Of a DNA stretch of 64,000 nucleotides, positions 33,285 to 52,357 are shown piece after piece. Every line of letters starts with the position of its first letter. Position 1 is the first letter of the stretch. This stretch comes from Candidatus Peribacteria bacterium (GTDB lineage Bacteria; Patescibacteriota; Gracilibacteria; UBA1369; LOWO2-01-FULL-3): the NCBI GenBank assembly GCA_943356465.1, contig CALREX010000001.1:124001-188000 (forward strand). The letters run 5' to 3'. The notes below the pieces were generated by a model. It was not told the DNA's origin. It worked only from the letters and a program-made list of their open reading frames with translations, and searched no databases. Both the position numbers and the translations under genes were made by a program.

Positions 33285-34334
33285 ATGAAGAAAAATTCTA
33301 AGGGAATAGAAAGGCGGGAAAAGCTGATAGCTAAAGCAAAATCAGAAATAGAAACTTTCGCGAGATCTATCGGGTTTGATTTGGTCGGTTTTTCTCAAGC
33401 AAAAATAGACAAAAAATATTTTGATATATACAAAAAATGGCTCGGAAAAGGCATGAATGCGGGAATGGAATACATGGCGAAATCTGCACAAAGAAAAGAT
33501 GCATCAAAAATTCTTCCAAATGCAAAAACGGTGATTTCACTTGGAATAAATTATTTTCATCCGCAGGAAAATCAAAAACTTTCTCAGGAGGAAGGCATAA
33601 TTGCACGTTATGCCTATGGCCGTGATTATCACAAAATCATTTCAAAGAAATTAAAACAACTCGAAGCCTACATGAAAGAAAAATTTCCAAATGATTTTAC
33701 AAAATCCTACGTCGACACAGGTCCGATTTTAGAACGCGCCTACGCCGAAACTTCCGGTCTCGGCCAAATCGGAAAAAATGGATGCATCATAACAAAAACT
33801 TTTGGCTCATGGATCTTTCTTTCAGAAATTATCACAACTGTTGAGCTAACGACTGGAATTGGTCAAGAAAGTTTCCGCACAAACATTCCGCAGGCTCCCT
33901 TGGTGGCCGGCCGAGGACGTTTGAAGGAAACTTTCTTGACCAATTCCATTTGCGGCTCCTGCACACGCTGTATTGACGCCTGCCCGACAAAAGCCATCAT
34001 CGCCCCGGGAATTATTGATGCCCGCAAATGTATTTCATATCAAACGATTGAAAATAAAGGTCATATTCCAAAACGCGTTGCCGACGCAATAAAAAAAACA
34101 AAAAGAATTTTTGGCTGTGATATCTGCCAGGAAGTCTGTCCGCATAATATGGGAAAACAAAAAATCACAACCCACTCAGAATTTTTACAACGCATTGCAG
34201 GTGACAAAATTCCAATCAAAAAAATCCTCACCATAAAATCAGACGAAGAATTTTTACATACATATGCGGGCTCTCCACTGATGCGTGCAAAACTGAGAAA
34301 ACTCGCATCAACTGCAAAAATTATAGCCAGTTAA
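33285..34334 (+). CDS. queG: Epoxyqueuosine reductase with an in-frame palindromic insert
   Basis: QueG performs the last, cobalamin-dependent step of queuosine synthesis in tRNA. The product has 349 residues from the ATG at 33285, which is preceded by GGAG at good spacing; the ATG at 33267 is discarded. It shows GFDLVGFSQAKI, SLGINYFHP, ARYAYGRDYHK, VDTGPILERAYAETSGLGQIGKN, and two 4Fe-4S motifs, CGSCTRCIDACP and CDICQEVCP. Between VEL and CGSC the protein carries about 25 extra residues compared with E. coli QueG. They are encoded by a 95-base palindromic segment. The frame is kept, so the enzyme is probably active. Its cofactor need fits the cobalamin adenosyltransferase at 38901. Confidence 0.94.
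   Translation: MKKNSKGIERREKLIAKAKSEIETFARSIGFDLVGFSQAKIDKKYFDIYKKWLGKGMNAGMEYMAKSAQRKDASKILPNAKTVISLGINYFHPQENQKLSQEEGIIARYAYGRDYHKIISKKLKQLEAYMKEKFPNDFTKSYVDTGPILERAYAETSGLGQIGKNGCIITKTFGSWIFLSEIITTVELTTGIGQESFRTNIPQAPLVAGRGRLKETFLTNSICGSCTRCIDACPTKAIIAPGIIDARKCISYQTIENKGHIPKRVADAIKKTKRIFGCDICQEVCPHNMGKQKITTHSEFLQRIAGDKIPIKKILTIKSDEEFLHTYAGSPLMRAKLRKLASTAKIIAS
33854..33948 (+). repeat. 95-base palindromic element inside queG
   Basis: Perfect 23-bp inverted arms (33854-33876 and 33926-33948, beginning TGGAATTGGTCAAG) enclose a GC-rich 49-base loop. The loop itself holds CAAAC/GTTTG and CCTTGG/CCGAGG stems and GGCCGGCC. The whole element is read through in frame and accounts for the extra residues of QueG. 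Architecture and in-gene location resemble Rickettsia palindromic elements. Confidence 0.75.
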
Positions 34335-41259: not shown

Positions 41260-41595
41260 ATGACAGATAAATATCCTCCATTCACAAAGGAAAAAATGGG
41301 AGATTTTCCTGTAAACGTAGACTTTAAACATGAGGCATCTGTCTCAAGATTAAGCGCTTTAATGACAATCATTCCTGTGAAAATGATACTTTTGATCCCT
41401 CACTTTGTAGTGATGGTCATTTTGGAAATAGGTACAGCTGTTTCATTATTTTTAGGATTATTCGGCACACTGTTTACGGGTAAATATCCATCAGTTTTCG
41501 CAAAAGTAATTATTACTTTCTACAATTATCAATTCAGACTAAGCACCTATATGCTTTGCATGACAGACAAATATCCACCAATCTCTTGGAACTAA
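41260..41595 (+). CDS. DUF4389 domain, second half of a split gene
   Basis: The product has 111 residues. It opens with MTDKYPPFTKEKMG, the normal tail of a preceding DUF4389 unit. Its own unit follows: SRLSALMTIIPVKMILLIPHF, a second hydrophobic segment (AVSLFLGLFGTLFTGKYP), and the tail TYMLCMTDKYPPISWN. It is in frame with the preceding ORF across a single TAA. If translated alone it may restart at the ATG 9 bases after that stop; no Shine-Dalgarno motif is seen. It is the last gene of the DUF5665-DsbA-VKOR-DUF4389 run. Confidence 0.8.
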   Translation: MTDKYPPFTKEKMGDFPVNVDFKHEASVSRLSALMTIIPVKMILLIPHFVVMVILEIGTAVSLFLGLFGTLFTGKYPSVFAKVIITFYNYQFRLSTYMLCMTDKYPPISWN

Positions 41596-41662
41596 TAACA
41601 ATAAAGAGAGAAAGGGAAAAGATCACGAAAAATATTTGAATAGAAATAAATAGAAGTTAGTA

Positions 41663-41804
41663 GAAAAGGTAAGTACAAAAAATTACGATAAATATTTATG
41701 CAACTAACAGAGACATCATGATGTCTCTGTTTTAGTTAAGACGTACATGTTAGTCTTAACTAATCGTTGCATGATTTTGAGTAATTTTTTGTACTTACCT
41801 TTTC
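41663..41804 (+). ncRNA. Structured three-way-junction element A (loop GTACATGTTA)
   Basis: Perfect 24-bp outer arms (41663-41686 and 41781-41804) enclose a 7-bp inner stem (ATGCAAC, 41698-41704, with 41766-41772). Inside this come 1 nt, a 26-nt perfect palindromic hairpin (41706-41731), a 32-nt hairpin with 11-bp stem TTAGTTAAGAC/GTCTTAACTAA around loop GTACATGTTA (41743-41752), and 2 nt. Element B at 50628 has the same dimensions and the same loop with different stem sequences. It lies between convergent genes, and its right arm runs into the lgt stop codon. RNA is inferred; a DNA cruciform is the alternative. Confidence 0.7.
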
Positions 41805-42601
41805 GATATCTTCTTTCTTTTCCAAAAAAACATGAAATATATTGCCGCCAAAAATATTGGCACTATGCTCAGAACCTGCCCCATTGATAAAGGAAAACTA
41901 TCCGGAAGTACATGCAAATCTTTGTAAAATTCTATAAAAAATCTTCCCAAAAAATAAAGTCCTACAAAGAAAAATAAGAAAAATAATTTTTGATTTTTCT
42001 TTCGCGATTTCTTGTAAATAAAAAACATCAAACCAAAAACGATCAAAAGCAGAAACGCTTCGTAAAGCTGAGCCGGATGCCGCGGAAAGTCTTCACCAAG
42101 TTGTTTAAATATAACTCCGATTCCGGAAACTTTTTCACCTGCATCAGCAATTTTATAACCGACAATTTCAGAATTAAAAAAATTTCCAATCCTTACAAAA
42201 AATGCAGTAATAGGAATTCCCATCGCAAGAGCATCGACATATTTTGCAAAAGGAACTTTATGAATTTTCGTCCACAAAAGATACGCTAAAAAAAGCCCGA
42301 TTGTCGCTCCATGGCTTGAAAGACCACCATGCCAGGTTTTAAAAATTTCAAGAGGGTTCGCCAAGAAAAAATCCGGCTCATAAAACAAAGCCTCGCCAAG
42401 TCTTGCCCCGATCAAAAGACCAAAAAACAAATAAATCGCGATGCTGTCCAGATCCTCAACTTTAAATTTTTCCTTAATAAAAATCCATCTTATGAAACTA
42501 TAAGTAAGCCCTATTCCAAGGGCAAAAAACACACCATACCATCTCAAAGAAAATTCACCGAATTTAAAAATTTCCGGAGAAATATCGTTAATAAAAATCA
42601 T
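41795..42601 (-). CDS. lgt: Prolipoprotein diacylglyceryl transferase
   Basis: A 268-residue polytopic membrane protein that adds diacylglycerol to the lipobox cysteine of lipoproteins. The Lgt signature around VRIGNFFNSEIVG is at residues 136-148. The conserved HGGLSSHGA is at 91-99, FRHPAQLYEA-type residues (DFPRHPAQLYEAF) follow, and there is a C-terminal RFFIEFYKD. It serves the lipoproteins at 4360 and 9582. The stop codon lies inside the right arm of structured element A, so the arm sequence also encodes the C-terminus (KISKR). Confidence 0.95.
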   Translation of the reverse strand: MIFINDISPEIFKFGEFSLRWYGVFFALGIGLTYSFIRWIFIKEKFKVEDLDSIAIYLFFGLLIGARLGEALFYEPDFFLANPLEIFKTWHGGLSSHGATIGLFLAYLLWTKIHKVPFAKYVDALAMGIPITAFFVRIGNFFNSEIVGYKIADAGEKVSGIGVIFKQLGEDFPRHPAQLYEAFLLLIVFGLMFFIYKKSRKKNQKLFFLFFFVGLYFLGRFFIEFYKDLHVLPDSFPLSMGQVLSIVPIFLAAIYFMFFWKRKKISKR

Positions 42602-43617: not shown

Positions 43618-43755
43618 AAAATCACAGCAAGGTTTGATTGAAAGTGTTCGCAGCCAGCCGGGTACACGCTTTAGCGGGTGGCTGGTGAGAGTCAGGCGGC
43701 GATTTTCTATCCAGAAAATCGACCGCGTCTTTCAAACAAACCCTGTTGTGATTTT
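43618..43755. repeat. Palindromic element C with two internal hairpins
   Basis: Outer arms of 27 nt (43618-43644 and 43729-43755, starting AAAATCACA) match at 24 positions plus a G-T pair. Inside are CCAGCC/GGCTGG (43654-43685, with a further stem ending in a TTTA loop) and GCGG-CGATTTTCT/AGAAAATCG-CCGC (43696-43726, loop ATCC). The inside is much richer in G+C than the flanks. It is similar in size to elements A and B but has no shared loop. It fills the gap between the methyltransferase gene and tRNA-Asp. Confidence 0.7.
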
Positions 43756-43758
43756 AAA

Positions 43759-43836
43759 TGGCGGAACGGACGGGGTTCGAACCCGCGACCTCCACAGTGA
43801 CAGTGTGGCGTTCTAACCAAGCTGAACTACCGCTCC
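43759..43836 (-). tRNA. tRNA-Asp(GTC)
   Basis: A canonical 78-base tRNA with encoded CCA and discriminator G. The acceptor is GGAGCGG/CCGTTCC, the D arm GTTC AGCTTGGTTA GAAC, the anticodon arm CCACA CTGTCAC TGTGG and the T arm GCGGG TTCGAAC CCCGT. It is close in sequence to E. coli tRNA-Asp. It lies just beside palindromic element C. Confidence 0.95.
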
Positions 43837-50213: not shown

Positions 50214-50600
50214 ATGTTTTTTCCCATTGCATACGCTGCGTCTCAACCAAGTATTATTGATCTTGCTCAACAAAATAACAGCATAATCGAAATACTTAAC
50301 AGAGGGCTTGCCTATGCGATGATTATTGCAGGGTTCTTGTCTGTTGTTTTCATATTCGTTGGAGGAATATCATTTATTCTCTCAGGCGGAGCTGAAGACA
50401 AAATAAAATCAGCTGTTTCCACAATACGTTATGCGATTATAGGTCTTATCGTTACAATTCTTTCCACAGTCATCGTCGGAACAGTCGGAAAAGCAATGGG
50501 ACTGGATATCATCAAATACATCAACCTCGGCGAAATCATAAACACAATAAAAAGCATCACAACAGAAAGTACTTCCTCTTCTCCTGAAACCCTCAAGTAA
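50214..50600 (+). CDS. TrbC/VirB2-like two-helix membrane protein
   Basis: The product has 128 residues. An early hydrophobic patch with PIAYAA looks like a signal-peptidase site. Two transmembrane helices (LAYAMIIAGFLSVVFIFVGGISFIL, written here in part as YAMIIAGFLSVVFIFVGG, and YAIIGLIVTILSTVIVGTVG) are separated by a short polar loop with GGAEDKIKSA. This is the shape of VirB2/TrbC pilins. In CPR genomes such proteins often stand alone, without a secretion system, as here. Ser/Thr-rich end. Role unknown. Structured element B follows. Confidence 0.7.
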   Translation: MFFPIAYAASQPSIIDLAQQNNSIIEILNRGLAYAMIIAGFLSVVFIFVGGISFILSGGAEDKIKSAVSTIRYAIIGLIVTILSTVIVGTVGKAMGLDIIKYINLGEIINTIKSITTESTSSSPETLK

Positions 50601-50627: not shown

Positions 50628-50772
50628 TGTTTTTGAGTGAGTATATTTGAATTTTTATGACTTATTAAATTTATGGTGTGTACACGTACACACCATATTT
50701 GCGAGCCCGTACATGTTAGGGCTAGCAAACTATTTAATGGAGTAAAAATTTAAATATACTCACTCAAAAACA
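50628..50772 (+). ncRNA. Structured three-way-junction element B (loop GTACATGTTA)
   Basis: Outer arms of 30 bp with one G-T pair (50628-50657 and 50743-50772) hold a 7-bp inner stem (ATTAAAT, 50664-50670, with 50732-50738). Then come 1 nt, a 26-nt hairpin (50672-50697, stem TATGGTGTGTAC), a 32-nt hairpin (50698-50729, stem TTTGCGAGCCC with one G/A mismatch, loop GTACATGTTA at 50709-50718), and 2 nt. Inner stem, spacing, hairpin lengths and loop match element A, while stems differ in sequence but keep pairing. It too lies between convergent genes. Function unknown. Confidence 0.7.
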
Positions 50773-50779
50773 AGCCCTC

Positions 50780-51298
50780 TTATATCAGCCCCTGCCTGAT
50801 AATATGTTTCCAGTCATATGGAAACTTGAAAGTTTCGACTGCCCTTACCAATGCGGCGAAAATGCTCCAAGGCGAAGTATTTTTATAGATAAAAGCATTC
50901 CCGGTTTCATGATTAGGATCATAATCCGAAACTTCAGGCCTCTCTTGGCTTATCGGAATAATTCCATTTGCCAATAATTCTTCAACATCAGTAAAATCAA
51001 AAACCAGTGCAATATCAGCAGCTTCAAGTAGATAATGCCTATTTAATCTGTTATACGTCATAACTTTTATTTCAGAAAAAATTTTGCAATTTGTATCTGC
51101 AATTGCGATAACAGTAGCATCCAAATCTTTTACACCATGCAAAATCAAACTCAAATTTTTCTCCTCAAGTTCGCTAAGTTCTCTGTCCACCAAAAGTGCA
51201 ATAAGCGGCTTCTTTATGTGGAATTTTAGCATTGAGGAAAGTCTGTCCTTCGCCTCTGACTTGTCTTTCAAAAGTAGGTCTATCGGCTTGATTTTCAT
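50780..51298 (-). CDS. Small glycogen-synthase-like C-terminal fragment protein
   Basis: The product has 172 residues. The middle has a Rossmann-like repeat (KKPLIALLVDRELSE, DATVIAIADTN, AADIALVFDF). The end, GNAFIYKNTSPWSIFAALVRAVETFKFPYDWKHIIRQG, resembles the last part of bacterial starch/glycogen synthases (GT5). The protein is too short to be a full synthase and lacks the N-terminal half. It could be a stand-alone family derived from it or a binding protein. It has its own TATAAT promoter, divergent from that of the exonuclease. Confidence 0.6.
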   Translation of the reverse strand: MKIKPIDLLLKDKSEAKDRLSSMLKFHIKKPLIALLVDRELSELEEKNLSLILHGVKDLDATVIAIADTNCKIFSEIKVMTYNRLNRHYLLEAADIALVFDFTDVEELLANGIIPISQERPEVSDYDPNHETGNAFIYKNTSPWSIFAALVRAVETFKFPYDWKHIIRQGLI

Positions 51299-51406: not shown

Positions 51407-52327
51407 ATGAAAAAATTAATTCTCATCGACGGAAACGCGATCATGCACCGCGCATATCACGCAATCCCACCATTCAAAACTTCAAAAGGAACTCTAGTAA
51501 ATGCAGTTTATGGCTTTTCCTCGATGCTTTTGAATATATTAAATAAAGAACATCCGGATTTCATCGCAGTTTCATTTGATTTAAAAGGTCCGACTTTCAG
51601 ACACGAAGAATACAAAGAGTACAAAGCAACCCGCGTAAAGGCTCCAGATGAGTTCTATGAGCAAATTCCTATGATAAGAAGAGTCGTGGAAGCTTTCGGA
51701 ATTCCGATCTACGAGAAGGAAGGATTTGAAGCCGACGACGTTTTAGGAACACTTGCCACACAAGCCGAAAAACTTGAAGATGTCTACACGTATATAGTCA
51801 CTGGCGACATGGACGCGATTCAACTTGTCAGCGAAAAAACATTTGTCTATACGCCTGTAAAAGGAATCGCAGAAACAATCACTTACGACATCCCAAAAGT
51901 GCTAGGGAAATACGGACTTTTGCCAAATCAAATCCCTGAATTAAAAGGCCTAAAAGGCGACAGTTCCGACAACATAAAAGGAGTAAATGGAGTTGGCGAA
52001 AAAACTGCAGTAACGCTTCTCCAAAAGTACGGAACAATAGACAACATATATAGACATATCGACGAAATCGAAGGCAAATTAAAGGAAAAATTGTCTATAG
52101 ACAAAGACTCCGCTTTTCAAAGCCTGCACCTCGCAACAATCGTAAGAGATGTGCCTGTCGCACTAGACATAGACGCATGTATTTCGAACGCATACGACAA
52201 AGAAAAAATCGCAGTATTATTTCAAGAATTCGAGTTCAAAAGCCTCATCCCAAAACTGACAAATTTTAACAATCATTCTGACAGAACACGCGCAGAAAAT
52301 AACATCGCGCAACAAACTTTATTTTGA
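51407..52327 (+). CDS. 5'-3' exonuclease (Pol I N-terminal domain type)
   Basis: A stand-alone flap endonuclease/exonuclease of 306 residues. LILIDGNAIMHRAYHA carries the first metal aspartate. AVSFDLKGPTFRHEEYKEYKATR, GFEADDVLGTLA, VTGDMDAIQLV and LKGDSSDNIKGVNGVGEKTA (with the helix-hairpin-helix) follow. This is the PIN-like FEN fold found as domain 1 of DNA polymerase I. Removal of RNA primers and flaps is the expected role. No polymerase domain is attached, and pol I would be elsewhere. Confidence 0.92.
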   Translation: MKKLILIDGNAIMHRAYHAIPPFKTSKGTLVNAVYGFSSMLLNILNKEHPDFIAVSFDLKGPTFRHEEYKEYKATRVKAPDEFYEQIPMIRRVVEAFGIPIYEKEGFEADDVLGTLATQAEKLEDVYTYIVTGDMDAIQLVSEKTFVYTPVKGIAETITYDIPKVLGKYGLLPNQIPELKGLKGDSSDNIKGVNGVGEKTAVTLLQKYGTIDNIYRHIDEIEGKLKEKLSIDKDSAFQSLHLATIVRDVPVALDIDACISNAYDKEKIAVLFQEFEFKSLIPKLTNFNNHSDRTRAENNIAQQTLF

Positions 52328-52328
52328 T

Positions 52329-52357
52329 TTGTCACGCAATGTGATTTCTAGTAGTAT
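52329..52357 (+). promoter_or_regulatory. Promoter of ftsA
   Basis: TTGTCA (52329-52334), a 17-base spacer and TAGTAT (52352-52357), 40 bases before the ATG at 52398. The boxes and spacing are identical to those of the tRNA-like gene promoter at 6511. Confidence 0.6.

Follow-up and report, generated by a model that had tools for sequence, protein, structure and literature searches.

A pair of fold-back elements with a common layout

The window, by which we mean the whole 64,000-nt stretch of DNA that was analysed (positions 124001-188000 of contig 1 in a host genome of 1.08 Mb and 7 contigs, G000), carries two fold-back elements, A and B, each flanked by one gene on the plus strand and one on the minus strand (Table 1). 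A reading made earlier from the sequence alone had described A as a perfect 24-bp inverted repeat enclosing a 26-nt palindromic hairpin and a 32-nt hairpin with an 11-bp stem, spaced 7-1-26-32-2-7, and we confirmed this layout. B has the identical spacing and the same loop, GTACATGTTA, with different stems, as had also been reported. The outer arms of B (50628-50657 and 50743-50772) are 30 nt each and 97% complementary. Both elements fold far better than expected (z = −14.2 for A with DNA parameters and −11.8 for B with RNA parameters; 0 of 200 shuffles folded equally well in either case). The loop GTACATGTTA occurs twice in the window, where 0.01 occurrences are expected, and nowhere in it outside A and B. 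A subtype of the element has a small additional hairpin at the junction.

Table 1 Elements A and B and associated sites, in window coordinates
Feature	Position	Strand	Context or basis
Element A, whole, P1 to P1'	41663..41804	+	Flanked by a 111-aa gene (+, ending at 41595) and an lgt-like gene (-, 41795-42601)
A left outer arm P1, pairs with 41781-41804	41663..41686	+	
A right outer arm P1'	41781..41804	+	
A tandem G.A internal loop, P1b and T-rich bulge, 5' side	41687..41697	+	Sequence and fold
A junction stem P2, pairs with 41766-41772	41698..41704	+	Covariation
A junction stem P2'	41766..41772	+	
A hairpin P3, perfect palindrome, apex CATG	41706..41731	+	
A hairpin P4, loop GTACATGTTA at 41743-41752	41732..41763	+	Loop tally
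Element B, whole	50628..50772	+	Flanked by a 128-aa gene (+, ending at 50600) and a 172-aa gene (-, 50780-51298)
B junction stem P2, pairs with 50732-50738	50664..50670	+	
B hairpin P3, palindrome, apex CACG	50672..50697	+	
B hairpin P4, loop GTACATGTTA at 50709-50718	50698..50729	+	
B junction stem P2'	50732..50738	+	
Empty site, stop codon of a 313-aa gene	52313..52336	+	~190-bp copy here in two sister species
Possible scar, left half of an older element upstream of A	41610..41645	+	Alignment with G003 locus by inspection; weak

Searching the window with Rfam at gathering score returned two tRNAs only and left the element unmatched; the best sub-threshold match of A was a microRNA model, MIR8562, at 23.8 bits compared with a gathering score of 211. 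We found no literature on such an element among the papers searched.

Other fold-back repeats also occur in the window. A second kind, at 43618-43755, has 27-nt arms (89% complementary) and two inner hairpins (z = −9.2) and adjoins a tRNA gene at 43762-43836. The second of these hairpins is similar to that found in a ~130-bp fold-back family of HGW-Peregrinibacteria-1 (G007), which has the arms AATCTTATTCTG / CAGAATAAGATT and is inserted into copies of the T-shaped element (loci L212, L215, L220, L112, near 83.7k, 120.6k, 133.7k, 679.9k). A perfect 23-bp inverted repeat at 33854-33948, with 49 nt between its arms, falls outside the T-shaped element family and within a coding region that includes a cysteine-rich, ferredoxin-like stretch.

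Taxonomic range and covariation

The 12-mer CGTACATGTTAG occurred 11 times in the host genome compared with once for a reversed control; 10 of these occurrences were within the fold, while the remaining one was intragenic and attributed to chance. One extra host copy, with loop GTACATGCTA, was recovered with a covariance model built from 16 copies, the E-values of which are rough, bringing the total in the host genome to 11. Four genomes of the genus had 9-20 covariance matches each, antisense echoes counted, and the same search found copies in half of the family (15 of 30 genomes). Across the class, matches were found in 21 of 338 genomes, all within one order and distributed among three families of that order, a patchy range in keeping with a mobile element. 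We also scanned 84,980 named genomes for the pattern, which gave 31 matches, nearly all named Peregrinibacteria. Those not named Patescibacteria were one other bacterium, in which the copy folds, and one Paenibacillus, which was rejected as a chance match together with its viral-contig copy because the fold was absent. In total, ~85 copies from one order of Peregrinibacteria were analysed, in copy sets that are partly non-independent; most genomes were draft assemblies and genes were called as longest open frames. The relatives include Peregrinibacteria CG_4_10_14_0_2_um_filter_38_24 (G001), C24_metabat.bin.136 (G002), MaH-04nov19-39 (G003) and G007.

Selection on structure, as proposed in the sequence-only reading, was supported by the covariance search of this and related CPR (Peregrinibacteria) genomes, which yielded many matches in which the stems covary and the loop hardly varies. 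Two-sided changes were detected at 27 of 27 core pairs in P2, P3 and P4 among 48 core sequences, with 453 two-sided-change cells compared with 143 in shuffles, and 88% of core cells were paired compared with at most 42% when partners were slid. In a full-length alignment of 16 copies, 45 of 47 predicted pairs had two-sided changes, outer arms included. Since the copies have mainly their fold in common, ordinary repeat finders would miss them.

The P4 loop, with consensus GTACAYGYTA, was GTACATGTTA in the majority of copies, with the variants GTACATGCTA, GTACACGTTA, GTACACGCTA and GTACAAGCTA, and was replaced by GAACATGTTC or a shortened loop in two relatives. The P3 apex was CATG, CATGT or CATGC in 66 of 77 copies. 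Kissing between the P3 and P4 loops was rejected on inspection of the loop tally, as the loop variants did not covary. No P1 bases were conserved, and the arms, which pair within a copy, differ in sequence among most copies; left arms were rich in purines and right arms in pyrimidines. A tandem G.A step was recurrent in P1 and occasional in P4, and mismatches were predominantly G.A or A.G rather than C.T in P1 across all copies (97 vs. 12) and G.A rather than C.T in P4 (33 vs. 4), which indicates that it is on the loop strand that mismatches are tolerated.

The outer arm typically ended very close to a stop codon (median distance 3 nt) and seldom close to a start codon (median 72 nt). The 67 clear gene contexts were convergent in 30 cases, co-directional in 33 and divergent in 4, and the element was antisense in 21 of the 33 co-directional contexts. 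Thus, the placement at the 3' ends of convergent genes that had earlier been suggested stands with respect to 3' ends but not with respect to convergence as a rule. The neighbours were unrelated housekeeping genes, and gene-specific regulation was rejected on this basis.

Turnover and persistence of copies

Copies that were 83-95% identical occurred at unrelated loci with flanks ~50% alike, and seven recent copies in G007 had common arms. The stop codon of the 313-aa gene is an empty site in the host (position 52327, clean edges) and is occupied by a ~190-bp copy in both G001 and G002. The only clean pair of empty and filled sites gave TTTT, inside a T-run, as a candidate target-site duplication; copying of the outer arms from the target was not seen at the sole clean empty site and was rejected.

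Copies were also replaced at old sites. At the B locus, the elements of the sister species G001 and G002 are unrelated although the flanking proteins are 96-97% identical. At another locus, G001 and G003 have a 99% identical element (core and arms as compared showed no difference) next to a gene whose four-fold sites differ by 42%, and G002, which is closer to G001, carries a different element there. The right half of an older element persists next to a new element in G003, and G001 has a right-half scar between the NAD kinase and pyruvate phosphate dikinase genes (names assigned by eye from protein sequences), where the host has a full copy. At other loci the core was flipped between the arms. 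These varying locations, replacements, scars and flips point to mobile or recombining DNA, which the earlier reading had missed, though homologous exchange could instead underlie the turnover.

Comparison of A with its G003 orthologue showed 1 difference in 78 core positions and 9-10 differences in 32 positions of each outer arm, with pairing kept, beside an lgt-like gene with four-fold sites that differ by 38%. Copies may therefore remain at a site for long periods with the fold intact while their outer arms change in concert, which could result from selection on the fold or from one arm being copied onto the other during replication. Certain copies are found at the same locus in species that differ at 30-45% of synonymous sites but by only 0-12% in the core, a degree of conservation that an inert insertion would not need. 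Decayed copies were few.

Orientation relative to base skew

In 69 of 83 copies, the better-folding strand coincided with the C-rich one; counted by independent loci, the figure was 52 of 62 (p = 6e-8). rRNA genes are on the G-rich strand in G000, G001, G002 and G007, so that the C-rich strand probably corresponds to the leading-strand template and, judged from base composition, the folding strand probably sits on that template. In G007, GC skew was one-sided (−0.18 to −0.45) in 27 of 27 samples (L112-L118 and L172-L191) around the single 998-kb contig PGYE01000001, and all seven copies were on one strand. The skew of this genome keeps its sign at dnaA, which suggests that replication is mostly one-way. 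One-sided skew and one-way replication have been described for Microgenomates in a study that called Peregrinibacteria typical (Kadnikov 2020, PMC7143001). A link between the element and one-sided chromosome skew was considered, but G015, a relative lacking the element, has a 591-kb one-sign contig, which fits either replication mode.

We considered whether the element is a host site for chromosomal replication or segregation, that is, a one-strand structure for priming, fork pausing or organising, under selection and spread by gene conversion. An orientation that tracks base skew would suit such a role, but 14 of the 83 copies point the opposite way, and the presumed leading-strand template is the less exposed one. 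The one-sided skew and single-strand copies of G007, the low core divergence and the retention of an element at orthologous loci even after its sequence was replaced agree with a host function, which we nevertheless regard as unlikely, given that copy number ranges from 0 to 16 among relatives, that many genomes lack the element and that host copies are clustered, with none on the 203-kb contig 2.

Folding as DNA or RNA

Isolated G.T and A.C mismatches numbered 3 and 6, respectively, in P3 and P4, among ~1,310 Watson-Crick pairs. Covarying RNA stems make free use of G.U, and in the tRNA stems of these genomes G.U amounted to 6% of paired cells (37 G.U vs. 1 A.C). That P3 and P4 covary almost without G.U, unlike tRNA stems, favors a DNA fold over an RNA fold. 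P1 had 52 isolated G.T compared with 13 A.C, a mild preference for the top strand and an excess that RNA would also produce, and the mismatch asymmetry was unchanged by the direction of neighbouring genes (48:18 for converging genes, 29:10 for genes against the element and 20:6 for genes with it). With DNA energies, the top strand folded better in 65 of 78 copies. From these sequence patterns we infer that the fold acts at the DNA level and would be better formed by the top strand.

Structured RNA had been named first in the sequence-only reading, and both the avoidance of G.U in the core stems and a strand asymmetry independent of gene transcription speak against it. RNA from read-through of an upstream gene was rejected because the asymmetry is equal in all gene contexts, including the 21 copies antisense to both flanking genes. 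A small RNA or 3' UTR element made from the loop strand would account for the extreme covariation, the top-strand bias in P1 (both G.T over A.C and G.A over C.T) and the position directly after stop codons, but P1 has no conserved sequence that could serve as a promoter, Rfam gave no match to the element at gathering score and the neighbours are housekeeping genes unrelated to one another, such that we consider an RNA improbable. A role in terminating transcription or protecting the mRNA 3' end of one or both neighbours, to which the proximity to stop codons and the purine-rich left and pyrimidine-rich right arms would be suited, is very improbable, as it leaves the invariant hairpin loops, the junction and the gene-independent strand asymmetry unexplained, the element is missing at equivalent gene ends in relatives, and the gene-end position may only reflect insertion where it does least harm.

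A proposed mobile element defined by its shape

The explanation we prefer, in which we have about even confidence, is that both A and B belong to a non-autonomous mobile DNA element family that is specific to this lineage and recognised as a folded single strand. The single-stranded form would fold into a T. Its outer stem P1 is long (24-30 bp or more) and free in sequence, and leads through the tandem G.A step to the junction stem P2 and a pair of 11-bp hairpins, of which P3 has the CATG apex and P4 the loop GTACAYGYTA. Single-stranded DNA would be the active form, and a putative trans-acting recombinase or nuclease would read it by junction shape and loops, so that stems may change provided that pairing stays. 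A dedicated enzyme would move the element, and the copies that last would mostly be those whose folding strand lies on the leading-strand template, a position in which folding and loss may be rarer (cf. attC, PMC5371416). Our confidence is limited because intact folds have long persisted at some loci and no enzyme was found.

The Y1 transposase family PF01797 had no matches in G000, G002, G003 and G007, and the reverse transcriptase RVT_1 was absent from G001, G004, G007, G021, G016 and G025; neither co-occurs with the element, and both were rejected as partners. The outer ends are not conserved, so that a DDE transposase would have no terminal inverted repeats to act on. An ordinary XerC/D-like protein adjoins one copy.

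More tentatively, we propose that the element is defined by how one DNA strand folds and not by its sequence, and that a putative structure-recognising enzyme moves or exchanges T-shaped single strands in Patescibacteria, with replication direction deciding which insertions survive. If the mobile-element reading holds, a new shape-reading enzyme would be expected in these bacteria with their very small genomes, the element would offer a natural test of DNA hairpin survival on leading versus lagging strands, and genome turnover in a largely uncultured group would gain a marker.

Comparison with known systems

In IS200/IS605 and REP/RAYT systems, single-strand hairpins are recognised by a Y1 HUH transposase, whereas the host of the present element and several element-rich relatives have no Y1 transposase. 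Descent from a retroelement or group II intron does not fit, as reverse transcriptase is lacking in the element genomes examined. Parvovirus genomes end in T-shaped hairpins with a long stem, two small internal arms and a conserved protein-binding sequence; the likeness is one of shape only, since copies of the element are internal bacterial repeats.

MITE-like repeats (Correia, ERIC, BOX/RUP, QMITE2) are, like the element, small, non-coding, palindromic and intergenic, and some occur at gene 3' ends; insertion of such repeats into one another and inversion have been reported (PMC10969869). The element resembles them in mobility, with dispersed copies and an empty site. However, MITE-like families are known by conserved sequence and terminal inverted repeats, while the stems and outer ends of the element are not conserved and only the recent G007 copies have common arms.

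The attC sites of integrons likewise keep their structure while stem sequence varies, and they act as a folded single DNA strand, the form that we propose to be active here. Conserved AAC/GTT boxes lie at the base of attC, whereas the element has conserved apical loops above a free base, with no such boxes in P1. Moreover, attC sites form cassette arrays with an integrase, while the element occurs as single copies with no array seen. In sedentary integrons, the attC folding strand is reported to be on the leading-strand template, which is thought to limit rearrangement (PMC5371416) and is the same bias as that suggested by the orientation of the element.
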